From Thermodesulfobacteriota bacterium (GTDB taxonomy: Bacteria; Desulfobacterota; Thermodesulfobacteria; Thermodesulfobacteriales; Thermodesulfobacteriaceae): a DNA stretch of 37,459 nt. The position numbers and the translations under genes are program-made. The notes under the pieces are model-generated. The model was given only the letters and a program-made list of their open reading frames with translations, had not been told where the DNA came from and did not search any database. The stretch is taken from positions 1 to 37,459 of the forward strand of contig JAUQQL010000014.1 in the NCBI GenBank assembly GCA_030578315.1, written 5' to 3'. Shown piece by piece: positions 147-26,472 of this stretch (positions within the stretch are counted from its first letter, which is position 1; every line of letters begins with the position of its first letter).

Positions 147-1541
147 ATGCAAGATATAAGAATTCAAGATTTACCTCCACCTCATGGTGGGAAACTTGTA
201 GAAAGAGTGGTTAGAGATCCTCAAATGGCTTGGAAGTTGATGGAAAAATGTTCTGCAGTTTATGATATTAAGCCTAATTTTTTTAAAGGTAATCCTATCA
301 GAAATGTATATAGAGAAATTATGTCAGTGTGTTATGGATTTTTTAGTCCTGTAGAAGGTTCTATGACCAAAGCTGAGCTTGAAAGTGTTCTTACAAGAAG
401 AAGGCTTTTGAGTGGTTGGATATTTCCGTATCCTATTCTTTTTGATATTTCTAAAGAAGATTTTCAAAAACTCGGTGTTGGGCCAGGGGATTGGTTACTT
501 TTAAGACTTAAGGGAGAACCTTTTGCAATTCTTGAAATTGAAGAAGTTTATGAAATTGATCCTCAAGATGTAGCAGTAAGAACTTTTGGAACTCCTGACA
601 AAAATCCTGAAGTTGTTAGAGTTCCATTTGATCAAAAACATCCGGGATACAATATTTATTGTTCTTTGAATCCTATAATTCTTGCAGGAAAATATACGAT
701 AATTAATGAACCTAAGTTAAGACCGCCTTTTGATAGATTTTGGTATCCGCCTAAGAAAGCAAGAGAAGAGTTTAAAAAGAGAGGGTGGAAAGTAGTAATT
801 GCTCATCAAACAAGAAATGTTCCTCATACGGGTCATGAGGCTTTAATGAAAAATGCGGCTTATATTGGTGATATTAAACCTTGTGATGGAATAGTTGTTA
901 ATGCAATAATTGGGGCAAAAAGAATTGGAGATTATCCTGATGAAGCTATTGTTGAAGGACATGAGATGTTGCATTTAGCAGGTTATATCAAGCCAGAAAG
1001 ACATATGGTAACAATTTGTCTCTGGGATATGAGGTATGGTAATCCAATGGAATCTTTACTTCACGCTACTATAAGACAGAATATGGGAATTTGGTATCAT
1101 ATGTTTGGAAGAGACCATGCAGCCTTAGGTGAGTATTATGATGTATATGCTACTCAAATTCTTTGGTCTCAAGGACTTCCGAGTTATGGAATAGAGGGAC
1201 CGCCTTATGCTGTTCCTGGAGGTTTTTATATAAGACCTCAAAATATTGCTGAATTTTGGTATTGTCCAAAATGTAAAGAATTTGCTTATTCTGAAAATTG
1301 TAATCATAAGGGAATATATTCAAGATATTCTGGTAGTTTTATTAGAGGACTTATTGGAGAAGGTGTATTTCCGCCCCCTGAAATTTTTAGACCTGAGGTT
1401 TATAAAGTAGTGGTGAAATGGTGGAAAGAGTTTGGATATCCGTTTAATAATGAAAAATACTTAAGAGAAAGAGAAGAGAGGCTAGAGGTTGATCTTCCTC
1501 ATATGGACATACCAGAGCATTTAAAGAAAAAAATTTCTTAA
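147..1541 (+). CDS. sat: Sulfate adenylyltransferase (ATP sulfurylase), dissimilatory type
   Basis: 464-aa ORF with AHQTRNVPHTGHEALMKNA and GRDHAALGEYYD (ATP sulfurylase HxxH/QTRNxxH and GRDHAG-like motifs) and C-terminal Cys site CPKCKEFAYSENCNH; RBS aggagg; followed by aprBA. Confidence 0.97.
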   Translation: MQDIRIQDLPPPHGGKLVERVVRDPQMAWKLMEKCSAVYDIKPNFFKGNPIRNVYREIMSVCYGFFSPVEGSMTKAELESVLTRRRLLSGWIFPYPILFDISKEDFQKLGVGPGDWLLLRLKGEPFAILEIEEVYEIDPQDVAVRTFGTPDKNPEVVRVPFDQKHPGYNIYCSLNPIILAGKYTIINEPKLRPPFDRFWYPPKKAREEFKKRGWKVVIAHQTRNVPHTGHEALMKNAAYIGDIKPCDGIVVNAIIGAKRIGDYPDEAIVEGHEMLHLAGYIKPERHMVTICLWDMRYGNPMESLLHATIRQNMGIWYHMFGRDHAALGEYYDVYATQILWSQGLPSYGIEGPPYAVPGGFYIRPQNIAEFWYCPKCKEFAYSENCNHKGIYSRYSGSFIRGLIGEGVFPPPEIFRPEVYKVVVKWWKEFGYPFNNEKYLREREERLEVDLPHMDIPEHLKKKIS

Positions 1542-1566
1542 AGAAAAAATTTTAAGGAGGAAAGAG

Positions 1567-1971
1567 ATGGCAACTTATTTTGCAGTTATTCTTGATGAAA
1601 AAAGGTTGGCAGCTATTAAAGGTACAGGTCTTGAGGAGAAAGTTACTTCTATGTTTGGGGGAGCTGTTAAGGCGTTAGTTATAGAGTTATCTGATGAACT
1701 TGGTAAAAAGGTAATTGAGCCTTTTCCTAAGGCAAGATTTGATGCGAGATTTTTTATTGAAGAAACACCTTTAGCTTTTAGAAGAGCTGTTTTTAAGAGA
1801 TTAGTAGAAATGAAATCTTTGGGACCTGAGGTAATTGAAAAGGTTTTGGCAGAAGATCTGGAAAAGATTAAAGAAGAGGCAGCAAAAGAAGATCAGGAGC
1901 TGCCAGTTCCTGATGTTGATATTAGTGATATTTTAGAACTTCAAAAAAATCCAGTACAAAAACCTGATTAG
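1567..1971 (+). CDS. Conserved-looking protein of unknown function between sat and aprB
   Basis: 134-aa ORF with RBS aaggagg, co-directional, 25-26 nt gaps to neighbours; soluble, acidic C-terminus; no recognised motif. Confidence 0.85.
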   Translation: MATYFAVILDEKRLAAIKGTGLEEKVTSMFGGAVKALVIELSDELGKKVIEPFPKARFDARFFIEETPLAFRRAVFKRLVEMKSLGPEVIEKVLAEDLEKIKEEAAKEDQELPVPDVDISDILELQKNPVQKPD

Positions 1972-1997
1972 CAAAAAACTAAATAGGAGGTGGGGTT

Positions 1998-2489
1998 ATG
2001 CCCAGTTATGTAAATCCTGAAAAGTGTGATGGATGTAAAGGTGGTGATAGAACGGTATGTATGTATATTTGTCCTAATGACCTTATGATTCTTGATCCAG
2101 AGGCTATGAAGGCTTATAATCAGGAGCCAGATCAGTGTTGGGAATGTTATTCTTGTGTAAAAAGTTGTCCTCAAGGAGCTATTAGTGTAAGACATTATGC
2201 AGACTTTGCTCCTTTAGATGGAACTTGTCAACCCATGCGTGGAACTACTGACATTATGTGGACTATTAAGTTTAGAAATGGGGTGGTATTGAGATTTAAA
2301 TATCCTACTAGGACTACTCCTGAGGGAGCTGCAGATCCGACTGTTGGGAAGCCTACTCCAGATCCGGCTTTACTTGGAACTAATCAACTATTTACCCAAG
2401 CTGCTGATGGTAAAGAACCTGCTAAACCCCAGGCTGTAGTAAATAAGAAATTTGAAGTAGGTGCTCTTGGAAAAACTGCTAAGTTTTAA
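1998..2489 (+). CDS. aprB: Adenylylsulfate reductase beta subunit (2x[4Fe-4S])
   Basis: PSYVNPEKCDGCKGGDRTVCMYICPNDLM and CWECYSCVKSCPQGAI ferredoxin motifs; directly upstream of aprA. Confidence 0.97.
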   Translation: MPSYVNPEKCDGCKGGDRTVCMYICPNDLMILDPEAMKAYNQEPDQCWECYSCVKSCPQGAISVRHYADFAPLDGTCQPMRGTTDIMWTIKFRNGVVLRFKYPTRTTPEGAADPTVGKPTPDPALLGTNQLFTQAADGKEPAKPQAVVNKKFEVGALGKTAKF

Positions 2490-2532
2490 AAAGTAAGATT
2501 AAAAATTTTTAAAATAAAAAGGAGGTGTCGAT

Positions 2533-4533
2533 ATGCCTAAAATTTGGAGTTACAATCCTGGGTTACCTTGTGCTGAACCAGAAATTGTTGAAAAAGAAAC
2601 AGATATTTTAATTGTAGGTGGGGGAATGGCTGCCTGTGGAGCAGCTGTTGAGGCTGTTCAATGGGCTAAACCTCATGGGTTAAGAATTATTCTTTGTGAC
2701 AAAGCAGCTCTTGAGCGTTCCGGTGCTGTAGCTATGGGACTTTCTGCTATTAATACCTATATCGGAGAAAATACTCCTGATGACTATGTAAGGATGGTTC
2801 GTTGTGACTTAATGGGAATTGTTCGTGAAGATTTAGTATTTGATGTAGGTCGTCATGTGGATGATACGGTACATTGTTTTGAGGAATGGGGTCTTCCTAT
2901 TTGGAAAAAGGATCCCAATACTGGAAAGACTTTAGATGGAGCTGAGGCTAAAGCTAAGGGTTTAACTTTAAAGGCTGGTGCTCAGCCTGTTCGTTCTGGA
3001 CGTTGGCAGATTATGATTAATGGAGAATCTTATAAAGTTATTGTTGCAGAAGCAGCTAAGAATGCTCTTGCTAACTATGATAAAGCTGAAATTATTGAAA
3101 GATGTTTTATTGTAAGACCTTTAATGGATGCTAATGAACCTAATCGTTGTGCTGGAGCAGTAGGATTTTCTGTAAGAGAAAATAAGATCTTTATTATCAA
3201 GGCTAAGGCAACGCTTTTAGCTACAGGTGGTGCGGTTAATGTATTTCGTCCAAGATCTATAGGTGAGGGTAAAGGTCGTGCTTGGTATCCTGTATGGAAT
3301 CCTGGTTCTGGTTTTGCTATGTGTGCTCAGAGTGGGGCAAAGATGGTGCTTATGGAAAACAGATTTATTCCTGCCCGTTTTAAAGACGGATATGGTCCAG
3401 TAGGTGCTTGGTTCTTACTTTTTAAAGCTCGTGCAACTAATGCTTTTGGAGAAGACTATGTAGCTAAGCATAAAGACGAGCTTAAAAAATTTGCTCCTTA
3501 TGGAGAGGCTACTCATATTGGAACTTGTTTGAGAAACCATGCTATGCTTATTGAAATGAAAGAAGGAAGAGGTCCTATTTTTATGCATACTGAATGGGCT
3601 CTTCAAGAAGCAGCTAAAACCATGGATAAAAAAGATTTTAAACACTTAGTTGCTGAAGCTTGGGAAGACTTTTTAGATATGTGCGTAACTCAAGCTGGTC
3701 TTTGGGCTTGTTTAAATATTGAGCCTGAAAAGCAGCCTTCTGAGATAATGCCTACTGAGCCTTATTTACTTGGTAGCCATGCTGGTTGTGCTGGTGCTTG
3801 GGTATGTGGACCTGATGAAGATTGGGTTCCTGAAGAATATAAAGCTCCTTGGAGAAATATTGGGCTTTATAACAGAATGACTACTGTAAAGGGACTTTTC
3901 TGTGCTGGTGATACTGTAGGAGCTTCTGGACATAAGTTTTCTTCGGGTTCTCATGTAGAAGGTCGTATTGCTGCTAAGGCTATGGTTAAGTTCTGTGTGG
4001 ACAACAAAGATTATAAACCTACTCCCAAGGAAAAACCTGAAGAGTTGAAAAAAGAAATTTATGATCCTTGGTACAGATTTGAACAGTTTAAGAATGCCAC
4101 TACTGCTTATGAAGTGAATCCTAACTATCTTATTCCTCGTCATGTACAGGAAAGACTTATGAAAATTATGGATGAATATGTAGCTGGATGTTCAACTTTC
4201 TATATGACTAACAAAGTTATGCTTGAAAGAGGCCTTGAACTTTTAAGAATGCTTAAAGAAGATATGGAAAAATCAGCTGCTAGAGACTTGCATGAGCTTA
4301 TGAGAGCTTATGAGAACAAACATCGTGTATGGACAGCTGAAATGCATCTTCTCCATATTCTCTTCCGTGAAGAGACTCGTTATCCGGGGTATTATTATAG
4401 GACTGATTTTCCTAATCTTGATGATGCTAATTGGAGATGCTTTACTCTTTCTCAGTGGAATCCTGAAACTAAGGAGTGGACTTTAGAAACTTATCCATAT
4501 ATTCAGATTATTCCTGATCCACTTGGACCGTAA
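2533..4533 (+). CDS. aprA: Adenylylsulfate reductase alpha subunit (FAD)
   Basis: 666 aa; FAD-binding TDILIVGGGMAACGAAVEA, ERSGAVAMGLSAINTY, SSGSHVEGRIAAKA; characteristic AprA sequence. Confidence 0.98.
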   Translation: MPKIWSYNPGLPCAEPEIVEKETDILIVGGGMAACGAAVEAVQWAKPHGLRIILCDKAALERSGAVAMGLSAINTYIGENTPDDYVRMVRCDLMGIVREDLVFDVGRHVDDTVHCFEEWGLPIWKKDPNTGKTLDGAEAKAKGLTLKAGAQPVRSGRWQIMINGESYKVIVAEAAKNALANYDKAEIIERCFIVRPLMDANEPNRCAGAVGFSVRENKIFIIKAKATLLATGGAVNVFRPRSIGEGKGRAWYPVWNPGSGFAMCAQSGAKMVLMENRFIPARFKDGYGPVGAWFLLFKARATNAFGEDYVAKHKDELKKFAPYGEATHIGTCLRNHAMLIEMKEGRGPIFMHTEWALQEAAKTMDKKDFKHLVAEAWEDFLDMCVTQAGLWACLNIEPEKQPSEIMPTEPYLLGSHAGCAGAWVCGPDEDWVPEEYKAPWRNIGLYNRMTTVKGLFCAGDTVGASGHKFSSGSHVEGRIAAKAMVKFCVDNKDYKPTPKEKPEELKKEIYDPWYRFEQFKNATTAYEVNPNYLIPRHVQERLMKIMDEYVAGCSTFYMTNKVMLERGLELLRMLKEDMEKSAARDLHELMRAYENKHRVWTAEMHLLHILFREETRYPGYYYRTDFPNLDDANWRCFTLSQWNPETKEWTLETYPYIQIIPDPLGP

Positions 4534-4551
4534 AATTTAAATAAGAAAAGG

Positions 4552-4590
4552 AAAACAGGGGGCTTTTAAGCCCCCTGTTTTTTTATTTTT
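4552..4590 (+). terminator. Rho-independent terminator after aprA
   Basis: AAAACAGGGGGCTT-TT-AAGCCCCCTGTTTT, 14-nt complementary arms with GC core, followed by TTTTATTTTT. Confidence 0.93.
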
Positions 4591-4635
4591 TCAGAATAAA
4601 TCTTCCTAAAGAAAGGAGGATTTATTCTGAAAAAA
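4586..4635. repeat. 22-bp inverted repeat with 6-nt loop in the qmoA leader
   Basis: TTTTTTCAGAATAAATCTTCCT (4586-4607), loop AAAGAA, AGGAGGATTTATTCTGAAAAAA (4614-4635); one T/G wobble in 22 pairs. Confidence 0.9.
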
Positions 4636-4654
4636 TGTTTTAGGGGGTATTTTT

Positions 4655-5893
4655 ATGGGTCATCCAACTATTTTAGTGGTAGGTGGAGGAATTAGTGGAA
4701 TTACAGCAGCTGTTGAAGCTGCAGAAATGGAATACGAAGTAATTTTGATAGAAAAAGAACCGACTCTAGGAGGAAGGGTTGCTCAGTTGAGATATTATTT
4801 TCCTAAACTTTGTCCTCCTGCTTGTGGGTTGGAAATAAACTTTAGAAGAATAAAATCTAATCCTAAAATTACAGTGTATACTATGGCTGAAGTGGTGGAA
4901 ATTTCTGGAAAACCCGGAAACTATAAAGTGAAAGTTAAAATAAGACCTAGGTATGTAAATGATAACTGCACTGCTTGTGGAGAGTGTGAAAAGGTTTGTC
5001 AAGGAGAAAGAGTAAGTGATTTTGATTTTGGTCTTGGGAAGACGAAAGCTATTTATCTTCCTTATCCTATGGCATTTCCTATGAAATATGTCCTGGATAA
5101 GGAGGCTTTAGCACCTGGAGATTTAGAAAGGATAATTTCGGTTTGTAAGTACAATGCAATAGAACCTGAGATGGAAGAAAAAATATTAGAACTAGAGGTA
5201 GGAGCAATTATATGGGCTACAGGCTGGCAACTTTATGATGCAACAAAATTAGATAATCTTGGTTATGGGAAATTTTCTAATGTAATTACTAATATGCAAA
5301 TGGAAAGAATGGCGTCCCCTTGGGGACCAACAGGAGGACAAATTTTAAGACCTTCTGACCAAACGGTTCCTAAAAGAGTAGCCTTTGTCCAATGCGCGGG
5401 TTCAAGAGACGAAAATCATCTTCCTTATTGTTCTTATATTTGTTGTTTAGCTAGTTTGAAACATAGTTTATATCTTGCAGAAAAAAGTTCAGAGACTGAA
5501 TCTTTGATTTTTTATATAGATATTAGAACTCCTGGAAGATATGAGAAATTTTTGAAAAAAGCTCAAGAAGAAGCTAAAATTACTTTTATAAAAGGTAAAG
5601 TAGCTAAAATTGAAGAAGAACCTGAAACGAAAGACCTTATTGTAACAGCTGAAGACACTCTTTTAGGAAAAAAGATTCATGAAAAGGTAAACATGGTAGT
5701 TTTAGCTCTTGGGATGCAACCAAGTACAGCTATTTTAAATATTCCTGGTCTTAAAGTAGATGAATATGGATTCGTTACTTCAGAGGAAGGAATTATTGGA
5801 TGTGGATGTGCTAAAATGCCTCTTGATGTGGTAAGTTCAGTTGAAACTGCAACTGGTGCAGTACTTAAAGCTATTCAGAGTATAATAAGATAA
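4655..5893 (+). CDS. qmoA: Quinone-interacting membrane-bound oxidoreductase subunit QmoA (HdrA-like flavoprotein)
   Basis: ILVVGGGISGITAAVEAAEMEYEVILIEKEPTLGGRV FAD motif, CTACGECEKVC, FVQCAGSRDENHLPYCS HdrA-like motif; downstream of aprBA. Confidence 0.95.
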   Translation: MGHPTILVVGGGISGITAAVEAAEMEYEVILIEKEPTLGGRVAQLRYYFPKLCPPACGLEINFRRIKSNPKITVYTMAEVVEISGKPGNYKVKVKIRPRYVNDNCTACGECEKVCQGERVSDFDFGLGKTKAIYLPYPMAFPMKYVLDKEALAPGDLERIISVCKYNAIEPEMEEKILELEVGAIIWATGWQLYDATKLDNLGYGKFSNVITNMQMERMASPWGPTGGQILRPSDQTVPKRVAFVQCAGSRDENHLPYCSYICCLASLKHSLYLAEKSSETESLIFYIDIRTPGRYEKFLKKAQEEAKITFIKGKVAKIEEEPETKDLIVTAEDTLLGKKIHEKVNMVVLALGMQPSTAILNIPGLKVDEYGFVTSEEGIIGCGCAKMPLDVVSSVETATGAVLKAIQSIIR

Positions 5894-5908
5894 TTAAGGA
5901 GGTTTAAA

Positions 5909-8110
5909 ATGGAAAAGATAGGAGTATTTATATGTACTTCTTGTGATATTGGAAAAAGATTAGATATAGAGCAACTTGAGAGTGTCGCTAAAGAGCAAGG
6001 AGCAATTTCAGTTTATAGTAAAGAATTTTTATGCTCTTCAGAAGGTAAGGAATTTATAAATTCTAAAATTGCAGAAGAGGGGCTTGATGCTGTTTCCATA
6101 TGTGCATGTTCTTCAAGGGTAAATTATGATGTTTTTAATTTTGGAAAAGTTGTAGTAGACAGAGTAAGCTTAAGAGAGGGGGTTGTTTGGAGTAGATTTC
6201 CAATAGGAGAGGGTGGAGAAATTTTAGACGACTCAACGGAATATGTAAGTGGAGTTTCTTTTAAAGATGAACTTATGGCTTTAGCTAAAGACTATATTAG
6301 GATGAGTGTAGCTAAACTTCAAATTTACAAAATTCCAGTTCCTTTTAAGCCGGAGGAAGAAATTTCAAAAACTGTTTTAGTTATTGGTGGAGGAGTTGCA
6401 GGACTTACAGCAGCTTTGGAAGTAGCTAAAGCTGGATATCCTGCTATTATTGTAGAAAAAGAAAAAGAATTAGGTGGTTTTGTAAAAAAAATGAAAGCTC
6501 ACTGTGAAGTTAAGCCACCTTATAAAAATTTAGTTTCTCCTGTAGTGGAAGACCTCATAAGTGAGGTAGAGAAAAATAAAAGAATTAAGGTATATACTTC
6601 AGCTCAGATTGTCAAAATTTCTGGAGGTCCAGGGATTTTTAAAGTTCTTATAAATCAAGGTGGAAAAGAGTTAGAAGGAAAGGTAGGAGCTATAGTTTTA
6701 GCAGTAGGGTTTAAACCCTATGATGCTTCTAATTTGTCTGATTTAGGATATGGGGTAATAAAAAATGTAGTAACTAATGTAGAATTTGAAAAAATGGCTA
6801 AAGAAGGAAAATTTGTTAGACCTTCGGATGGAACTCCAATTAAAAGTGTACTTTTTATTCAGTGTGCAGGACAAAGAGACGAATCTTATCTTCCTTATTG
6901 TTCTAGTTTTTGTTGTTTAGCTTCTTTAAAACAGGCTAAGTATTTAAGAGAAGCAGATCCCGAAGCTAAAGCTTACATTATTTATGAGTATATGAGAACT
7001 ATGGGAATTTATGAAAACTTCTATAAGTCCTTACAAGATGACCCTGGAGTGTTTTTAACTAAAGGAAAGGTAGTTAGTGTTTCTGAGGGACAAGAAGGTA
7101 AAGTTAGAGTGGAAGTAGATGAAACTCTTTTGGGAGAAAAAATTGTATTAGAAGTAGATGTTGTAGTTTTAGCAACAGGAATGGTTCCAGTAACTGCTGA
7201 GGAGCCAGTTTTGAATTTAGAGTATAGACAAGGACCAGCTTTACCTGAATTAGAACTTTTTTATGGATATGCTGATTCTAACTATATTTGTTTTCCCTAT
7301 GAAAGTAGAAGAACAGGTATTTATGCAGCAGGAGCAGTTCATCAACCTATGACGATAGGTCAGGCCATAGAAGATGCCCGGGGTGCTGCACTTAAGGCTA
7401 TTCAGTGTATTACTGCAGTTGAGGCAGGACATGCAGTTCATCCAAGAACTTGGGATTTTGCTTACCCGGAATTTGACCTAAAGATGTGTACTCAGTGTAA
7501 AAGATGTACTGAAGAGTGTCCTTTTGGAGCCTTAAATGAAGATGAAAAAGCCTTTCCTATTCCTTTTACCACCAGATGTAGAAGATGTGGCACTTGTTTT
7601 GGAGCTTGTCCACAGAGAATTATAAATTTCAAAGATTATTCTATTGATATGGTTTCCAACATGGTTAAAGCTACAGAGATGCCTGAACAAGGATATGAAC
7701 TTTATAGGTTCATGGCTTTTGTATGCGAAAACGATGCTTTACCAGCTTTAGATATGATAGCCTATCAAAGAAAGAACCTTCCAGTTGCCTTTAGGATTAT
7801 TCCTGTTAGATGTTTAGGAGCTGTAAATGTAGCTTTTGTTAAAGATGCTATGAGTAAAGGTTATGATGGAATTTTAATGATAGGTTGTAAGTATGGAGAG
7901 AACTATCAGTGCCATTTTATTAAGGGAAGTGAAATTGCAAATAGAAGAATGGAAAATGTAGCAGAAACTTTACAGCAGTTAGCTTTGGAGTCTGAAAGAG
8001 TAACTATGTTAATTACAGCTATAGATGAAATTGACCACATAGTTGAAAAGATGAAAGAATTTGCAGAAACTATAAAAGGATATGGGGAAAATCCATTTAA
8101 AGGATGGTAA
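5909..8110 (+). CDS. qmoB: QmoB (HdrA/MvhD-like fusion)
   Basis: 733 aa; VLVIGGGVAGLTAALEVAKAGYPAIIVEKE, IQCAGQRDESYLPYCSSFCC, two ferredoxin motifs CTQCKRCTEECPFGA and CRRCGTCFGACPQR, C-terminal MvhD-like domain. Confidence 0.95.
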   Translation: MEKIGVFICTSCDIGKRLDIEQLESVAKEQGAISVYSKEFLCSSEGKEFINSKIAEEGLDAVSICACSSRVNYDVFNFGKVVVDRVSLREGVVWSRFPIGEGGEILDDSTEYVSGVSFKDELMALAKDYIRMSVAKLQIYKIPVPFKPEEEISKTVLVIGGGVAGLTAALEVAKAGYPAIIVEKEKELGGFVKKMKAHCEVKPPYKNLVSPVVEDLISEVEKNKRIKVYTSAQIVKISGGPGIFKVLINQGGKELEGKVGAIVLAVGFKPYDASNLSDLGYGVIKNVVTNVEFEKMAKEGKFVRPSDGTPIKSVLFIQCAGQRDESYLPYCSSFCCLASLKQAKYLREADPEAKAYIIYEYMRTMGIYENFYKSLQDDPGVFLTKGKVVSVSEGQEGKVRVEVDETLLGEKIVLEVDVVVLATGMVPVTAEEPVLNLEYRQGPALPELELFYGYADSNYICFPYESRRTGIYAAGAVHQPMTIGQAIEDARGAALKAIQCITAVEAGHAVHPRTWDFAYPEFDLKMCTQCKRCTEECPFGALNEDEKAFPIPFTTRCRRCGTCFGACPQRIINFKDYSIDMVSNMVKATEMPEQGYELYRFMAFVCENDALPALDMIAYQRKNLPVAFRIIPVRCLGAVNVAFVKDAMSKGYDGILMIGCKYGENYQCHFIKGSEIANRRMENVAETLQQLALESERVTMLITAIDEIDHIVEKMKEFAETIKGYGENPFKGW

Positions 8111-8122
8111 GGAGGAAGACCT

Positions 8123-9319
8123 ATGGCAAATGAAGTGATTAAAATTGATGCAGATTTATCAGCTATTAAAGAAATTCAATCTGTGGGAGGAGATACTTTA
8201 AAAAAGTGTTATCAATGTGCTACTTGTGCAACAGTATGTCCCCTTTCTCCTGACGAAGCTCCTTTTCCAAGGAAGCAGATGATTTTAGCTCAATGGGGAT
8301 TTAAAGAAAAATTACTTAAAGACCCTACAGTTTGGCTTTGTCACCAATGTGGAGATTGCAATAAGTACTGTCCACGCGATGCTAAACCTGGAGATGTAAT
8401 GGCGGCTTTAAGACTTTTGGTAATAAGAGAAGTGATGCCCTTTAAAATTTTATATTCTCTTTGTAATAATCTTTGGGGACTTCCGATTTTAGCCTTAATA
8501 GGATTATTTTTTATTCTTTTTTGGACAGTACTTTTGTTTGGAGGAGTTCCTAATTTTGCAGACCCCAATTCTTTTCCTTATGGAGGAGGACATTATAAAA
8601 TTTGGTTTTTAGATTTGCCAGCTCGAGTTCTTATGATTGACATAATTTTTGTTCCTCTGGCAATTTTTATAGCAGTGGTCTTACTTGCTGGAGTGAGTAA
8701 GCTTTGGAATAATTACATAGAAACCTTTAACATTCTTCCTGCCTATCGATATAGATGGTGGCAAATCTTAAGAATGTACTTCTGGCCAGCTATTAAAGAA
8801 ATTCTTCTTCATCAAAGATTTGAAAAGTGTAATATAAATAATTGGAGAACCGTTCCTCATCAGATGCTTCTTTATGCCTTTATTATTCTAGCTATCACTA
8901 CAGCCATTGTGTTCTTTTTAGCAGATATTTTAGGATTTCATACTCCTTGGAATCCTCTTACTCATCCAGTAAAGTGGTTAGGTAACATTGGAGGTATTCT
9001 TCTTATTTATGGAAGTCTTCGTATAATTGCAGGGAGAACTAGAGCTTCTATAGAAAATTATTTAAAAAATAGTTATCCTGACCTCTTTTTAATGTATTTG
9101 ATTTTAGTGGTAGGAATAACTGGATTTGGAATAGTAGTTTGTAGGTCTGTTGAATTTTTAAATTTTCTTACTTCTTTCTTTTATATAGCCCACTTAGTAG
9201 CTGTGTTTATTTTATTTATTAGCGCTGGATATTCTAAATTTGCTCACTTAGCTTTTAGGACTACTGCTGTAGTTTTTGACCTTTATTACAAAGATGTTTT
9301 GAAAAAGGAAGGTTTTTAA
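8123..9319 (+). CDS. qmoC: QmoC (HdrC-like FeS plus heme b membrane domain)
   Basis: 398 aa; CYQCATCATVCPL and CHQCGDCNKYCPRDAKPGDVMAALR, then multiple TM helices; follows qmoB. Confidence 0.95.
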   Translation: MANEVIKIDADLSAIKEIQSVGGDTLKKCYQCATCATVCPLSPDEAPFPRKQMILAQWGFKEKLLKDPTVWLCHQCGDCNKYCPRDAKPGDVMAALRLLVIREVMPFKILYSLCNNLWGLPILALIGLFFILFWTVLLFGGVPNFADPNSFPYGGGHYKIWFLDLPARVLMIDIIFVPLAIFIAVVLLAGVSKLWNNYIETFNILPAYRYRWWQILRMYFWPAIKEILLHQRFEKCNINNWRTVPHQMLLYAFIILAITTAIVFFLADILGFHTPWNPLTHPVKWLGNIGGILLIYGSLRIIAGRTRASIENYLKNSYPDLFLMYLILVVGITGFGIVVCRSVEFLNFLTSFFYIAHLVAVFILFISAGYSKFAHLAFRTTAVVFDLYYKDVLKKEGF

Positions 9320-9455
9320 AATCTATTAAAAAGAAGTTTTAAAGATAGAATTTAATTTCTTATTAGAAGAATTTTGTTCTGATAAAAATTGTTTTAAAAA
9401 TTTAAAATTATTTTTCAAATTAGAATTTAAAAGGCTAAGGTGAGGAGGTAAAATA

Positions 9456-10622
9456 ATGAAGATAAGTTTAGTGGGAGATTTTCCAAAAACTAAAAGTTTT
9501 AATTATTTATTAGGAATTTCTATATTAATTTTCTTGTTATCTTTAGGATTTGGTTTGCACGGTATTTATACAGGTTATAGACATGTTTATGGAGTAACAA
9601 GAGAAATTCCCTGGGGAATTTTAATTTCAGGTTATGTATTTTTTGTAGTAACTTCTACTGGACTTTGTATAGTTTCCTCTATAGGTCATGTATTTGGAGT
9701 AAAATCCTTTATTCCCATAGCTAAAAGATCTGTATATCTCTCTGTTATAACTTTACTTGCTGGTTTTTTAGTTATTTTTTTTGATTTAGAAAATCCTTTT
9801 AGAATGGCTATTTGGAATATATTTTCTCCTAACTTAACTTCTAATATATGGTGGATGGGAACTTTTTATGGAGTTTATTTATTTTTTATGAGTTTAGAAT
9901 TTTTATTTTTACTAACAGAAAAGCATAAATATGCAAAAGTATCTGGCTTTTTAGGATTAATTTCAGGAGTTGCTGCCCATAGCAATTTAGGTGCTGTTTT
10001 TGGAATGCTTCATAGTAGGGAGTTTTGGTACGGACCTTACATGCCTATTTATTTCATAGCTTCTGCAGTAGCCTCAGGTTGTACTGCTATTATATTTTTT
10101 ACTTATTTAGGATATAAAGTTGCTAATAAAAAGATAGAGGAATCTATGGAGTTAGCTTTGCGATCAGTAGCTAAGCTGTGGGCTCTTATTTTAGCTATTC
10201 TTATGTTTTTTACTGCTTGGAAGTTAATTACAAGTTTTGTAGGCGGAGAAGGAAAAATTTTAGTGGTTAAAGAGATGATTTCAGGAAAATATGCCTTTAA
10301 CTTCTGGTTTTTTGAAGTGATTTTAGGTATGTTGGTTCCTTTTTTTATATTGTTAATTTCGAAATTTAAAAATTTAACTTATATGTTTATAGCTTCTATA
10401 TTAGCTTTTATTGGAATTTATTTTATGAGAGTTGATTTAGTAGTCTTAGGTCAAATAGTTTCTCACTATTTTGAACTTAGGGTTACCGATTTTCCTATAC
10501 TTTTTTCTTATACACCAAGTTTACATGAAGTTATTATTGTAATTGGAGCTATTGCTTTTTCTATATTAACATTTCTAATAGGAGAAGGTATTTTTAAAGG
10601 TCACAAAATGGAAAATCATTAA
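9456..10622 (+). CDS. NrfD/PsrC/DsrP-type polytopic quinone-interacting membrane subunit
   Basis: 388 aa, about 10 hydrophobic segments, motif YRHVYGVTREIPWGILISGYVFFVVTSTGLC typical of NrfD/HybB-like subunits; followed by ferredoxin and cytochrome c genes. Confidence 0.88.
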   Translation: MKISLVGDFPKTKSFNYLLGISILIFLLSLGFGLHGIYTGYRHVYGVTREIPWGILISGYVFFVVTSTGLCIVSSIGHVFGVKSFIPIAKRSVYLSVITLLAGFLVIFFDLENPFRMAIWNIFSPNLTSNIWWMGTFYGVYLFFMSLEFLFLLTEKHKYAKVSGFLGLISGVAAHSNLGAVFGMLHSREFWYGPYMPIYFIASAVASGCTAIIFFTYLGYKVANKKIEESMELALRSVAKLWALILAILMFFTAWKLITSFVGGEGKILVVKEMISGKYAFNFWFFEVILGMLVPFFILLISKFKNLTYMFIASILAFIGIYFMRVDLVVLGQIVSHYFELRVTDFPILFSYTPSLHEVIIVIGAIAFSILTFLIGEGIFKGHKMENH

Positions 10623-10640
10623 ATTTAGGGGGAATAAAAT

Positions 10641-11399
10641 ATGTTTAAAAAATGGTGTAGTTGGCTTAAAGATTTAAAAAATGAGAATATAAAAGAAATT
10701 CCTGATGAAGAAAGAAGAGAGTTTTTAAAGATAGGTTTGATTATTACAGGAATTTTTGCAGGTGGTAGTTTACTAAGTGTAGTTTCAACTATTTCAGAGG
10801 GACTTGCGACCCCTCAAGAGTTAAAAGAGAGCTATCCTTACAAACCACATTACAGCATGGTCTTGAAAATAGACTTATGTATTGACTGTGAAAGATGCAT
10901 AGAAGCTTGTGCGATCACTAATAATGTACCTAATTATGGGTGGAGAACTATGATACTTGAAAGATACGTTCCCGAAGCTACTGACCAAAAAAGACTTTTT
11001 GTACCTATTTTATGTAATCATTGTAATCGTCCTCCTTGTGTAATAGCTTGTCCTACTAAAGCTACTATTAAAGATCCTACAACAGGGATTGTCAAAATGG
11101 TTTCTCATAAGTGTATAGGATGTAAAACTTGTATGGTTGCTTGTCCATATAATGCAAGATATTTTAATGATGAAAAACATGCTGTAGATAAGTGTGACTT
11201 TTGTTGGGAAAGTAGACTTTCTAAAGGTATGACTACCACAGCTTGTGCTGAAGCTTGTCCTGCAGGTGTAAGAGTTTTTGGAGATCTCTCAGATCCAGGA
11301 AGTGAAGTTTATCGTTTAGTTCATCAATTAGGTAAGCCTGTATGGGTTTTAAAACCAGAGACAGGAGCAAAACCTAATGTCTTTTATACCATAAGCTAA
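10641..11399 (+). CDS. Tat-exported 4x[4Fe-4S] ferredoxin subunit (DsrO/HybA/NrfC-like)
   Basis: Twin-arginine motif ERREFLKIG before a hydrophobic stretch; cysteine motifs CIDCERCIEAC, CNHCNRPPCVIACP, CIGCKTCMVACP, CDFCWES...CAEACP. Confidence 0.9.
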   Translation: MFKKWCSWLKDLKNENIKEIPDEERREFLKIGLIITGIFAGGSLLSVVSTISEGLATPQELKESYPYKPHYSMVLKIDLCIDCERCIEACAITNNVPNYGWRTMILERYVPEATDQKRLFVPILCNHCNRPPCVIACPTKATIKDPTTGIVKMVSHKCIGCKTCMVACPYNARYFNDEKHAVDKCDFCWESRLSKGMTTTACAEACPAGVRVFGDLSDPGSEVYRLVHQLGKPVWVLKPETGAKPNVFYTIS

Positions 11400-11415
11400 A
11401 AAGGAGGTTTTTGGA

Positions 11416-11835
11416 ATGAAAAGAGTTTTAAAATTTCTTGGTTTATTATTAGGATTTTTTTTGGGATTGGTAAGTTTAGCCTATCTACAAGAGAGATCTG
11501 AGGAAGGATTAGTTATTCCTAATGAAGATATAGGAGCTCCAGAAATAGTTTATAATAAACCAGTTAAAGGGGTTCTTTTTAGTCACAAGTATCATGTAGG
11601 TGAATTAGGAATGAGCTGCGAGAGCTGTCATCCCAAACTTTTTGAAATGCAGGCACTTAAGTCTCAAGAAAATCCTGATTTCAATATGAAATCTCTTTAT
11701 CAAGGGAAATACTGTGGAGCTTGTCACGATGGGAAAATGGCTTTTGCTTCTAATACTAAATGTGCTAATTGTCATATAGGAGTAAAAGGATTAAAAAGAC
11801 TAGAAAAAGAAGTGAAAAAGATCGAGAAAAAATAA
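11416..11835 (+). CDS. Membrane-anchored triheme cytochrome c (c7/c3-like)
   Basis: N-terminal hydrophobic segment; three CxxCH motifs (CESCH, CGACH, CANCH) and FSHKYH distal-histidine pattern. Confidence 0.9.
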   Translation: MKRVLKFLGLLLGFFLGLVSLAYLQERSEEGLVIPNEDIGAPEIVYNKPVKGVLFSHKYHVGELGMSCESCHPKLFEMQALKSQENPDFNMKSLYQGKYCGACHDGKMAFASNTKCANCHIGVKGLKRLEKEVKKIEKK

Positions 11836-13142: not shown

Positions 13143-13625
13143 CTAACATCCTTCTATTTTCTTTTTCTGGAGAGAAGACTTAGAAACTGTTTCAAAGGCT
13201 TTTATTATCTCTTCGTCTTTTAAGTTTTTATGCAAATTTTTGTGAGAAGAAATATTTTTTAAGTATTTAGCTAGCTCTTGTCCAGAGGTAACTTTAGAAT
13301 TTTTAATAGAAACTGTCAATTTTTCTAAAGTTTCATGACATTTTAAACAAGAAAGTGTAGCCGAAACTTTTTCTCCAGATTTTTCTACTGCGGTTTGAGT
13401 TTGATTAACTATTTTTTTAACAGGTTGTTCTATAGGTTGTTTTAGAGTTTGATTAAGAGTTTGAGTTTGGTTAGTAATCTTTTCAGCAGTTTGATTTACA
13501 GTTTGATTAACTAATTGTCCTACAGTTTGATTAGTTAGTGTCGCTTTTTCTTCTTTTTTACACCCTGTGCCTAAATTTAAAAAAATAAATAAACTAATAA
13601 TTGCTGGAAAAAATTTTCTTCCCAT
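13143..13625 (-). CDS. Probable heme c-binding lipoprotein with NQT repeats
   Basis: Signal peptide with imperfect lipobox LGTGC; repeats of NQT; one CxxCH (CLKCH, nt 13335-13349). Confidence 0.7.
   Translation of the reverse strand: MGRKFFPAIISLFIFLNLGTGCKKEEKATLTNQTVGQLVNQTVNQTAEKITNQTQTLNQTLKQPIEQPVKKIVNQTQTAVEKSGEKVSATLSCLKCHETLEKLTVSIKNSKVTSGQELAKYLKNISSHKNLHKNLKDEEIIKAFETVSKSSLQKKKIEGC
13392..13532 (-). repeat. Imperfect in-frame NQT-coding repeats
   Basis: Six NQT tripeptides in aa 32-78; on the + strand recurrent (a)cagtttgatt / gagtttgatt. Confidence 0.8.
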
Positions 13626-22611: not shown

Positions 22612-25600
22612 ATGAAAGTTATTTTCATAATACTTAAGTCAAAAAGTTTTTTCCAATATCTTAAAAAATTTTTATTGATTTTTGTAATATTTTTAATTTC
22701 CTTTCTAAGTAAAGAAGCTACTATTGGAACAAGTGGGATGAGTGACTATTGTTATGCTCCTCCAATGGTCGGAACAGCATTACCCCCTAATGTTTTACTG
22801 ATAATAGATGTTAGTGGTTCCATGGGATGGTGTGCTTATAATCCTAAAAATAATAAAGAAGAGTGTTGTAATAACAGCGTGGGGTGTGGGTGGAATTACA
22901 GAGGAAATGAGGAAGGATATTTTGAGCCTGATAAAATTTATGAATATCGTACAATTACTGTAGGTTCAAGTAGAGATGTAGGAGCATGGATAAAATCAAA
23001 TAGTACTAGTAGTACAACTTGTCCTGCATATCCTGGAGGAATCAACACTAATAACCGATATAAAGGTAGTTGTCTTAATTTTCACTATATGAGAAGAATA
23101 GACCTTGTGAGATGGGCTTTAACTGGAGGAACTTTAGATAGTTGTAATACAGGAGTAAATGTAAATAATCCTCAGTTTAATAGATGTAATCCTATGGCTT
23201 TTGGAAGACCTGGAGACCAGACCTCTTGTAATGCCACGGGTTGTTTACTTAAAACTTATAAAAATGTAAGAGTTTTTGCCTCTTGGGATAGAATTAATGG
23301 CACTCAAGGAGGATTACTTTTTCAATTTAAAAGTTTGAGTCCCCAACCTCGTATCGGGCTTATGGAATATTCTGACAGAAGTAATAGGCCTTCAGATTTT
23401 ATTAGACAAAGCCTGGTTTATATTGGAGACTTTGTTGCTTCTGCTAATTATGATGCTGTCAATCCTTATAAAAATGTAATTACTTCTATTAATGCTGAAG
23501 ATCCTTACGGAGGTACTCCTACAGGTCCTGTCTTGTGGGATGCTTACAATTATTTTGCTCAGAGGACCCCTCAATATGGAGGATTTCAGCCACAAACAGG
23601 ACAAGGAGATCAATGGAAAAATTATATGTATCAGTGTGAAGATGCTAATAATGATGGTAATTGTCAAGGAAATGAATTTAAATTCGTATATTGTGCTAAA
23701 AATTTTATAATTCTTTTAACTGATGGACAATGGAATACAGGATATAATGCAGCTACAGTATGCACTATAGATCATGGATTTGAAGATCGTTCAGCAGATC
23801 CTGTAGTTCCAGCTTATTGGCTACACAAAAGGGGTTTTAACAACACAGCTGCTAATAATACCTATTCTTATGTAGAAGCTATTTATGGAATAGGTCTTTG
23901 GTTAGGAGGAACAGGAGAGAGGTCTTTAAAAAATGTAGCCATGTACGGAAGTTTTGATAGGTACAAAAGTTGGCCAGGAAATTTAACTGGATATCCTCAA
24001 GCAGTTTGTGGTCCTGTAGACGATTGTTGTACTGGAGTGAATTGTGGAAAAGGTTCTTCTTGTGCTAATCTTCCTCCTTCCTCTCCAGATTGGGACAAAG
24101 ATGGGGACGATATTCCAGATACTTTTTTTTCAGCTTCAGACGCTAAAGAAATTAAAGATTCTATAATGTCTGCTATTCTTGACATTCTCCGCAGGGCTTC
24201 TTCGGGGGCTACTGTAGCAACGCTTTCTCAAAGGGTAGGAAGTGGTGCTATTTTAATTCAACCTTATTTCTTTCCAAGATTTCAATCTACTACAGGGGAA
24301 ATCTCCTGGATAGGGTCCATTAAAAGTTTTTGGACGGATTTTAAAGCAAGAATAAGAGAAGATTTAAATACTAATAAAATTTTAGACGTCTTAATAGATA
24401 AATGGATTCTTTTTGGAACTTCTAATCAGACTTCTGAGGGTACTAAAATTTATAGAATTCTTGATGAAAATACCTGTAGCTATGAAGTTTTAGATATTTT
24501 TGATGTTAAACCGCTTTTTGATGCTGGTTGTTTACTTGCTAATAGAAATTATTCTGATAGAACAGTTTATGTGAATTTGAATGGAACTTTAAAAAACTTA
24601 ACTGACTACAATATAGTAAGTGATTTAACTAACATTTGGAATATAAGTGTTAAAGAAATTTTAGGTCCAAATGTTAGTATAAATAATGCAACTACTGTTT
24701 GTATAATAAATTATTTAATGGGTAGTAACTCTACTAATTGTCCAAATGGTAATAGTACTTTTATTAATAGACTAAGAGACATCAATTTATCATCTATATG
24801 TTCTATTAACAGTGTAAAAACTTGGAAACTAGGAGATATTGTGTATTCAACCCCAACTATAATTTCTAATCGTCCGCTTAATACTTATCATCTTAAATAT
24901 GGAGATATAAGTTATCTTCAATATATAAGAAGTGATGAGTATAAAAAAAGAAATGCTTATGTTTTAGTAGGAGCTAATGATGGTATGTTACATGCTTTTA
25001 GAATAGGATGGTTAGAATATCCATATAATCCTCCTACTCAGCCTTTAAGATTAATAGATAGCTTAACTAATCCTACTACAAACTTTATAGGTAAAGAAGA
25101 ATGGGCTTTTATTCCTTTTAATGCGCTTCCTTATCTTGTAGTGTATGGAATGAATGATTATTGTCATATATTTACTGCAGATTATAAAGTGTCAGTATTT
25201 GACGCCAAAATAAATGAAGAATGGAAAACTTTACTTTTAGGAGTAATGGGATTTGGAGCAAAAGCTTTGGGGAATTTTAGTTCTTCTATTTATCTTTTGG
25301 ATTTAACACCTTGGTTAAATGGAACAGATACTAAACCTAGTGTTTTGTGGGAAAGAACTTTGCCTGATAAAACTTTAACTCTTTCTTATTTTCATGTAAT
25401 TAAAATTCAGGATAAGTGGTATGTGGTTATAGGAAGTGGACCCGAGTATATTAAAGGAGCTGGAGAGGGTATAGAAGTAAAATATCCTTCTCAGGCACCC
25501 AAGCTATTTTTCTTTGATCTTGCTAACGGAACTCTAGTCAAAAGTTTAGAAATTCCTGGAGTAAACAATCAAGCTGTAGGAGCTATTCGTCCTGTAGATT

Positions 25601-26472
25601 ATGATAAAGATTACAGCGACGACCTTATATATTTTGGAACTTATAATAAAACTTCTGGTCAACTATTTAGATTGTCTTTTAAAATGTCAAACGGCTCTTA
25701 TAAATCTGTTGAGAGTTTAACAAATGCTGATATAAAGGTTGCTTTAGAAAATTTTCCAGCAAGACCTATATTTTCTGCTCCTGAGTTAACTATGGATCTT
25801 GAAAATAATCTTTGGGTTATCTTTGGGACAGGTGTGTACTTTGGAGATGATAAGACAATTAATTATAATAATTATTTTGTAGGATTTAAAGACATTTGTG
25901 CAATTAGTTCTAACATCACTTGTACAAAATGGACTGACTTACAAGATAGAAGTATATATTGTAGAAATTTTAATAACTATAATGCAACAGTTCTTTACAA
26001 TTCAACAGAAACAACTTGTGAATTTAATCCAGCAACTGGACAAGTAGAATCTATAAATACAGGATTAGTATATGCTTTTTTCTTTTCTAACGTTGATTTA
26101 GGATGGTATCACCAACTTGAAAATAATGAAAGGATGTATTCTCAACCTTTAATTATAGCTTCTTTAGTTAACGCTTTAAGCTATATTCCTTCTGATAACC
26201 CCTGTGAAATAGGTGGAAATACTTTTTACTGGAATGTATGTTATCTTGAAGGTTGTCCTTGCATAAGTACTAAAGGAGAAAATATTCCTGAGCCTAAAAG
26301 ATGGTTCGCTAGAGGAGCTCCACCTCTTGGACAGCCTTTTCAGATTGTTTTAACTCAGGACGAAAGAATAACTATTTTGACTCAAACTTCTGAAACAGGA
26401 CCGAGTTCCCCTGTTTCACCCTTACGTACTCATGGTCTTAAAGGGAGGTTTATTTTTTGGATAGAAAAATGA
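22612..26472 (+). CDS. PilY1-like type IV pilus tip/assembly protein
   Basis: 1286 aa; signal sequence, vWA-type MIDAS VLLIIDVSGSMGW, C-terminal PilC/PilY1 propeller region (YVLVGANDGMLHAFRIG, RPVDYDKDYSDDLIYFGTY); followed by minor prepilins. Confidence 0.9.
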   Translation: MKVIFIILKSKSFFQYLKKFLLIFVIFLISFLSKEATIGTSGMSDYCYAPPMVGTALPPNVLLIIDVSGSMGWCAYNPKNNKEECCNNSVGCGWNYRGNEEGYFEPDKIYEYRTITVGSSRDVGAWIKSNSTSSTTCPAYPGGINTNNRYKGSCLNFHYMRRIDLVRWALTGGTLDSCNTGVNVNNPQFNRCNPMAFGRPGDQTSCNATGCLLKTYKNVRVFASWDRINGTQGGLLFQFKSLSPQPRIGLMEYSDRSNRPSDFIRQSLVYIGDFVASANYDAVNPYKNVITSINAEDPYGGTPTGPVLWDAYNYFAQRTPQYGGFQPQTGQGDQWKNYMYQCEDANNDGNCQGNEFKFVYCAKNFIILLTDGQWNTGYNAATVCTIDHGFEDRSADPVVPAYWLHKRGFNNTAANNTYSYVEAIYGIGLWLGGTGERSLKNVAMYGSFDRYKSWPGNLTGYPQAVCGPVDDCCTGVNCGKGSSCANLPPSSPDWDKDGDDIPDTFFSASDAKEIKDSIMSAILDILRRASSGATVATLSQRVGSGAILIQPYFFPRFQSTTGEISWIGSIKSFWTDFKARIREDLNTNKILDVLIDKWILFGTSNQTSEGTKIYRILDENTCSYEVLDIFDVKPLFDAGCLLANRNYSDRTVYVNLNGTLKNLTDYNIVSDLTNIWNISVKEILGPNVSINNATTVCIINYLMGSNSTNCPNGNSTFINRLRDINLSSICSINSVKTWKLGDIVYSTPTIISNRPLNTYHLKYGDISYLQYIRSDEYKKRNAYVLVGANDGMLHAFRIGWLEYPYNPPTQPLRLIDSLTNPTTNFIGKEEWAFIPFNALPYLVVYGMNDYCHIFTADYKVSVFDAKINEEWKTLLLGVMGFGAKALGNFSSSIYLLDLTPWLNGTDTKPSVLWERTLPDKTLTLSYFHVIKIQDKWYVVIGSGPEYIKGAGEGIEVKYPSQAPKLFFFDLANGTLVKSLEIPGVNNQAVGAIRPVDYDKDYSDDLIYFGTYNKTSGQLFRLSFKMSNGSYKSVESLTNADIKVALENFPARPIFSAPELTMDLENNLWVIFGTGVYFGDDKTINYNNYFVGFKDICAISSNITCTKWTDLQDRSIYCRNFNNYNATVLYNSTETTCEFNPATGQVESINTGLVYAFFFSNVDLGWYHQLENNERMYSQPLIIASLVNALSYIPSDNPCEIGGNTFYWNVCYLEGCPCISTKGENIPEPKRWFARGAPPLGQPFQIVLTQDERITILTQTSETGPSSPVSPLRTHGLKGRFIFWIEK

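Follow-up and report, generated by a model that had tools for sequence, protein, structure and literature searches.

The window analysed here is a stretch of 37,459 nucleotides from a Thermodesulfobacteriota bacterium (contig C35 of genome G000, which has 1.67 Mb in 71 contigs and is 99.98% complete and 5.17% contaminated). It carries sat, a DUF6955 gene, aprB, aprA, qmoA, qmoB, and qmoC, all on the forward strand, followed on that strand by three genes for an NrfD-type membrane protein, a Tat-signal ferredoxin, and a triheme c7-type cytochrome (nrfD, fdx, and cyt, hereafter the trio; Table 1). The coordinates of these three open reading frames were reproduced exactly, and their Pfam matches agree with the gene content given in the initial annotation for positions 9456-11835, namely an NrfD protein, a Tat ferredoxin with 16 cysteines, and a triheme cytochrome c. 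Profile searches of the window placed sat, aprB, aprA, and qmoC above their NCBIfam cut-offs and, in line with the initial annotation, no gene for DsrMK or for a molybdopterin subunit was found in it. The trio genes are separated by 18 bp (nrfD-fdx) and 16 bp (fdx-cyt). Because G003, an independent genome (contig JANXAD010000001.1, Thermodesulfobacteriaceae bacterium SKYB108), has the same order qmoC-nrfD-fdx-cyt, this order is not an assembly chimera, and the trio is genuine, beyond chance.

Other features of the window were recorded as well. The DUF6955 gene (1567-1971) lies between sat and aprB, a place that it occupies in nearly all relatives seen. On the reverse strand, positions 13143-13625 encode a 160-residue lipoprotein-like protein with asparagine/threonine/glutamine-rich repeats, a single CxxCH motif, and no Pfam match. 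A 1286-residue PilY1-type protein is encoded at 22612-26472 and is followed by several small open reading frames on the same strand, possibly a type IV pilus cluster.

Table 1. Positions of the trio, its upstream neighbours, and the separate dsrMKJOP genes (window positions unless another contig is named)
Feature	Position	Strand	Evidence
sat, DUF6955, aprB, aprA, qmoA, qmoB (upstream context)	147..8110	+	Pfam and NCBIfam profiles
qmoC (upstream neighbour)	8123..9319	+	NF038018, 366.8 bits (cut-off 300)
qmoC-nrfD gap, 136 bp, AT-rich, GGAGG ahead of nrfD	9320..9455	.	
nrfD, 388 aa, NrfD-type integral membrane protein	9456..10622	+	PF03916, 1.9e-29
fdx, 252 aa, Tat-signal ferredoxin (NrfC/DsrO-like)	10641..11399	+	Fer4_11, 3e-23
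cyt, 139 aa, triheme c7-type cytochrome	11416..11835	+	PF14522 (Cytochrome_C7), 8.6e-17
dsrMKJOP	G000 contig C69, 13180-14241 down to 9116-10297 of L024		dsrO and dsrP above cut-off

Predicted features of the three proteins

Ten transmembrane helices are predicted for NrfD, and its AlphaFold2 model (pLDDT 83, pTM 0.87) has ten long helices. The top structure in a Foldseek search with this model was ActC of alternative complex III (TM 0.81, 15% identity). When residues of QrcD were mapped onto the window protein, Ser138 corresponded to S129, which is invariant, and Asp120 to D110, which is replaced by Glu in the clades not linked to qmo. Tyr150 and Arg358 are retained as Y141 and R325, while Asp70 and Tyr110 are replaced, by Y60 and L100, respectively. 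NrfD thus carries the signature of a quinone pocket, suggesting that it may react with quinones.

The ferredoxin has 17 cysteines, 16 of which lie within four [4Fe-4S] cluster motifs, and a twin-arginine motif, ERREFLK, at residues 24-30. Its Thr163 (in CKTC) stands at the position of the essential Tyr113 of QrcC, and either Thr or Ser occupies this position in every trio ferredoxin of the alignment.

The cytochrome matches the c7 triheme model TIGR04257 with 82 bits for a cut-off of 40, and has three CxxCH motifs (at nucleotides 11617, 11713, and 11761). A hydrophobic N-terminal stretch at residues 4-22 is predicted to be an anchor or a cleaved signal. Five histidines are present, and H57, H60, M78, and M91 are invariant among 17 relatives. 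The closest solved structures are the domains of GSU1996, in whose domain C Met209 is an axial heme ligand (PMC10138318). Because M91 aligns with this Met209, one His/Met heme is predicted, and the distal heme ligands would be H57, H60, and M91.

Relation to known complexes

The initial annotation had likened the trio to DsrJOP, and the same types of subunits are indeed found, that is, a triheme cytochrome c, a Tat ferredoxin, and an NrfD-type membrane protein. In contrast to DsrJOP, the cytochrome of the trio is of c7 type, it does not match the DsrJ model (NF038038) in a profile search, pairwise comparison revealed no full-length similarity to the DsrJ of its own genome, and no DsrMK adjoins it. 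The ferredoxin reached 172 bits against the DsrO model (cut-off 200) and is 33% identical to the DsrO of its own genome; NrfD reached 38 bits against DsrP (cut-off 350) and is 25% identical to the DsrP of its own genome, the only other member retrieved there in an NrfD-domain search. A genome check confirmed that a complete dsrMKJOP set lies on a different contig, with all genes above curated cut-offs. The identity with DsrJOP is therefore abandoned on three grounds, the intact set elsewhere, the c7 cytochrome, and the separate clades of NrfD and ferredoxin, and the intact set also rules out that the trio is a JOP part displaced from a DsrMKJOP that has broken up.

As in QrcABCD, an NrfCD module is combined with a multiheme cytochrome, and the quinone-site Ser and Asp are common to QrcD and the trio NrfD. 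Unlike Qrc, the trio has no QrcB, its cytochrome has a local match to QrcA of 27 bits (cut-off 180), and neither QrcC nor QrcD is found above cut-off in it. The QrcC Tyr113, QrcD Asp70, and QrcD Tyr110 are replaced, so that of the set formed by these three with Ser138 and Tyr150, the equivalents of the latter two alone are retained. The trio differs from Hmc in having a triheme cytochrome instead of the hexadecaheme HmcA, and its NrfD scored 52 bits against HmcC, for a cut-off of 550. With respect to NrfABCD, no match to the NrfD equivalog or NrfB models was found in the trio by NCBIfam profile search, the ferredoxin reached 165 bits against NrfC (cut-off 378), and an NrfA-like protein is encoded on another contig. 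The core ActABC of alternative complex III resembles the trio in that ActC has the nearest fold to NrfD and ActA has a c7-like cytochrome domain; the trio differs in lacking the molybdopterin-like part of ActB, ActD-F, and the monoheme cytochromes, and the identity is about 15%. A stand-alone NrfCD pair with a cytochrome, separate from dsrMKJOP, is also found at the DsrOhPh-tetrahaem locus of cable bacteria, but there the cytochrome is a tetraheme and the membrane protein was reported to branch beside DsrP, unlike the trio NrfD (PMC13047784).

Close counterparts are found in lineage g5, which from its matching gene order we take to be Thermosulfurimonas and whose orthologues of the trio NrfD are 50-53% identical. 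In Thermosulfurimonas dismutans, TDIS_1141-1144 have been described as an nrf operon from which nrfA is missing (Mardanov, 2016, PMC4911364), and encode NrfD, a Tat NrfC-type ferredoxin, and a triheme cytochrome in the same order; they differ from the trio in having an NrfH-like multiheme cytochrome in front and no linkage to qmo.

The phylogenies point in the same direction. In a tree computed with the longest branches left out, the trio NrfDs form a clade of their own that includes neither DsrP nor QrcD nor the HmcC-like protein, and the trio ferredoxins form a clade (100/99) apart from DsrO, QrcC, NrfC, HmcB, and HybA. Together, an NrfD-domain membrane protein and a Tat ferredoxin with four clusters constitute a module of the NrfD/PsrC superfamily. 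Within it, the trio belongs to an uncharacterised NrfCD + c7-triheme family of its own, outside DsrJ/DsrO/DsrP, Hmc, and Qrc. The comparison called for in the initial annotation thus sets the trio apart from DsrJOP, and does not place it within any other known complex encoded elsewhere.

Distribution and inheritance of the linkage to qmo

Surveys were performed on 41 genomes of the order and on 395 genomes of Desulfobacterota. In the order, qmoC is present in 39 genomes and a trio-type NrfD in about 21, and it is near qmo in only five or six, which argues against the conduit dedicated to Qmo that had been envisaged initially. Within the nominal genus, the trio occurs in G000 and G003 only. In the complete relatives G005, G010, and G013, which are presumably Thermodesulfobacterium species, sat-DUF6955-aprBA-qmoABC is followed by unrelated genes, and the trio was not found anywhere in these genomes. 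Qmo-bearing genomes evidently can dispense with it, and the many relatives that have Qmo without the trio rule out that it is a general subunit of Qmo. Among the other genomes of the order, we take G018 to be Caldimicrobium thiodismutans, G017 Thermosulfurimonas marina, G030 Thermosulfuriphilus, and G032 Thermodesulfatator.

All three genes are again found together in lineages g1, g2, g4, g5, g6, g7, and g9, with two trios in g7. In g8, a sigma-54/PAS regulator splits fdx-cyt from two nrfD genes. An NrfH-like multiheme cytochrome precedes the trio in g4 and g5, and the trio adjoins NrfH/NapC-like multiheme cytochromes in g4 to g6. Across the phylum, matches below 1e-40 were obtained in 63 of the 395 genomes, often as two to four paralogues. 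Because these relatives adjoin sigma-54 regulators, MerR regulators, and c3-type tetrahemes, and usually lie far from qmo, the trio family is not specific to qmo. Separately, an 8-heme cytochrome that joins an NrfH-like N-terminal part to a c7 triheme C-terminal part was observed (L026, 13039-14004; L072, 398-1363); its neighbour in g6 is the trio, and in G029, for which no trio was detected, it is qmoC.

Proximity to qmo was observed in G000, G003, G014, G018, and G026, and probably exists in G024 across a contig break. The NrfDs concerned form one clade (98/100). In the QmoABC tree, G000 and G003 group with the g2 and g6 lineages (98/99), the latter of Caldimicrobium type, and the rest of the nominal genus falls outside this group. 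The branching of QmoABC agrees with that of the NrfD and ferredoxin trees of the trio, and by parsimony a single gain suffices for the linkage. The qmo-trio link NEVERTHELESS is thus inherited: because the qmo-linked trios form one clade congruent with QmoABC, it arose once and was passed down through three genera. The single clade and the congruent branching rule out separate recent captures beside qmo in each lineage. Inside the corresponding QmoABC clade, G020, G022, G028, and G029 lack the trio.

The genes between qmoC and the trio vary. In g6, small genes intervene together with those for a histidine kinase and a sigma-54 response regulator, and in G014 a gene for a 99-residue membrane protein does. 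The g6/g2 intervals were also seen to encode small membrane proteins and a conserved 116-residue protein with no Pfam match (L026, 8782-10532; L028, 9202-10273; L029, 9881-10180). The gene order for which conservation had been asked is thus identical in G003, while genes intervene in g6 and g2, and most genomes of the genus lack the trio. In the window, the 136-bp gap between qmoC and nrfD compares with 12-43 bp elsewhere in the cluster, except for the 121 bp between aprA and qmoA. No terminator-like site was detected in this gap; in the sister genome G003, in contrast, the equivalent gap holds a strong 14-bp terminator-like hairpin (fold z-score -2.5), so that qmo and the trio are likely transcribed separately there. 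No sigma-54 promoter consensus was found near the trio in the window or in the G018 and G014 regions. The neighbourhood is conserved, yet neither one operon nor one complex is indicated. The description of the trio as appended to the Qmo operon is not supported, in view of the 136-bp gap and the G003 hairpin. No report of a qmo-linked trio was found in literature searches.

Electron flow and candidate roles

The trio is most readily understood as a free-standing menaquinone/menaquinol:cytochrome c oxidoreductase that shares its pool with Qmo and is a subunit of neither Qmo nor DsrMKJOP, a reading that we consider probable. NrfD, with its ten helices and a quinone pocket on the periplasmic side, would pass electrons and protons to or from menaquinone/menaquinol. 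The ferredoxin, exported by the Tat route, would conduct electrons through its four [4Fe-4S] clusters to the membrane-tethered triheme c7 cytochrome, which, with one likely His/Met heme, would trade electrons in either direction with soluble periplasmic cytochromes, and the trio and QmoABC would be connected through the menaquinone pool. The three proteins may form a complex, but an obligate three-subunit assembly is not certain, as fdx-cyt and nrfD are not contiguous in the g8 genomes. A point against the stand-alone reading is that the linkage to qmo was kept over three genera despite differing intervening genes, which hints at some functional tie. The initial interpretation is thus partly supported. 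A quinone/cytochrome redox trio is tied to qmo by inheritance, with S129, D110, and Y141 kept, but not as a dedicated or necessary partner of Qmo. Nor would it explain how menaquinol drives Qmo, since its terminal cytochrome, a triheme protein that faces the periplasm, does not reach the cytoplasmic AprAB.

As to direction, we lean weakly towards menaquinol oxidation, because residues essential in Qrc are replaced in the trio (Thr163, Leu100, and Tyr60) and because orthologues adjoin NrfH/NapC-like multiheme cytochromes. Mutagenesis has shown that QrcC Tyr113 and QrcD Tyr110 are essential in the menaquinone reductase Qrc, and the position of QrcD Asp70 is reported to be Tyr in the polysulfide reductase PsrC of Wolinella (PMC13059093). 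The part of this lean that is based on residues relates to mutants of one enzyme, and the authors of the Qrc study noted that the residues differ between members of the family (PMC13059093).

A specific form of the free-standing oxidoreductase, in which electrons flow in the direction opposite to that first proposed, concerns sulfur disproportionation. Sat-AprBA-QmoABC working backwards (sulfite to sulfate) would load menaquinone, and the trio would unload it to cytochromes of the periplasm that serve a reductive partner; we regard this as possible, though on balance unlikely. A YTD cluster (YedE-TusA-110 aa-118 aa) is present in the window genome (contig C68, L137 3731-5909), as in all nine trio-bearing genomes checked, including G003, and is absent from all four trio-less genomes of the same genus, Thermodesulfobacterium-type, that were checked (G005, G009, G010, and G013). 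The trio-less G022 and G028 also possess it, giving a table of 9/0 versus 2/4 (Fisher p=0.011), in which the genomes are phylogenetically non-independent and amount to nearly one contrast within the order. YTD occurs in all S0 disproportionators, but also in some non-disproportionators (PMC12998232). The experimentally established sulfur disproportionators of the order belong to Caldimicrobium, Thermosulfurimonas, Thermosulfuriphilus, and Thermodesulfatator (PMC12998232), which match the trio-bearing genera if our putative genome names are right, and a reverse Qmo has already been proposed in T. dismutans (PMC4911364). A hypothesis to which the association with YTD points is that Qmo runs in reverse with the trio as its menaquinol outlet. 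Against it, the window genome has no MOLY-type molybdenum enzyme, formate dehydrogenase-N being the only molybdopterin oxidoreductase found. The gene for the alpha subunit of the latter (contig C38, L108 1381-3837) contains an in-frame TGA, probably for selenocysteine.

Less probable is that the trio acts as an NrfBCD-like menaquinol dehydrogenase supplying a periplasmic multiheme reductase for nitrite or hydroxylamine reduction. The T. dismutans orthologues were annotated as an nrf operon, with a multiheme NrfH (PMC4911364), a similar locus has been associated with nitrite reduction or sulfur compounds (PMC5276818), NrfH/NapC-like cytochromes adjoin the trio in g4 to g6, and the window genome encodes an NrfA-like 7-heme protein and an octaheme HAO/HDH-like protein. 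However, neither reductase adjoins the trio in that genome, the trio cytochrome is not NrfB but a c7 triheme, the NrfD equivalog model is not matched, and the neighbours across the phylum are regulators and not reductases.

It is similarly improbable that the trio substitutes for Qrc, with formate, H2, or an extracellular donor reducing periplasmic cytochromes from which the trio would pass electrons to menaquinone and on to Qmo and Dsr. The order lacks Qrc (PMC10553843), no QrcD was found above cut-off in the window genome, and quinone-site residues are common to QrcD and the trio NrfD. On the other side stand the replacement of two essential QrcD residues and of the QrcC Tyr, and the lack of the trio in most relatives of the same genus. 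No NiFe hydrogenase was found above cut-off in the window genome, which also speaks against a hydrogenase-linked Qrc-like role. Extracellular electron uptake as the purpose of the trio was rejected as well: despite the presence of ExtKL-like and other multiheme proteins in the window genome, G000 and G003 rank among the genomes of the genus with the fewest heme motifs, with no sign of strong uptake.

Finally, the Qmo-JOP supercomplex initially proposed, in which the trio would physically join QmoC and feed APS reductase, agrees with an adjacency inherited as a single clade with congruent trees, but is very unlikely given its patchy co-occurrence (many Qmo-bearing relatives lack the trio, which elsewhere lies away from qmo), the two-component and other genes intervening in g6 and g2, the G003 hairpin between qmoC and nrfD, and a homology to JOP limited to the level of the NrfCD superfamily.

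The trio defines an NrfCD + c7-triheme family, so far uncharacterised, that is found repeatedly across Desulfobacterota and can easily be confused with DsrJOP or Nrf. We suggest, with considerable reserve, that the trio beside qmo oxidises menaquinol as the outlet of a reverse-running Qmo in sulfur-disproportionating Thermodesulfobacteriales. If so, the electron circuit of disproportionation would be completed, and the trio and Qmo would be one physiological unit without forming a supercomplex. Its inherited site beside sat-apr-qmo in lineages with YTD makes the trio a concrete, testable candidate for the route by which electrons reach menaquinone or are withdrawn from it while Qmo is active during sulfur disproportionation.
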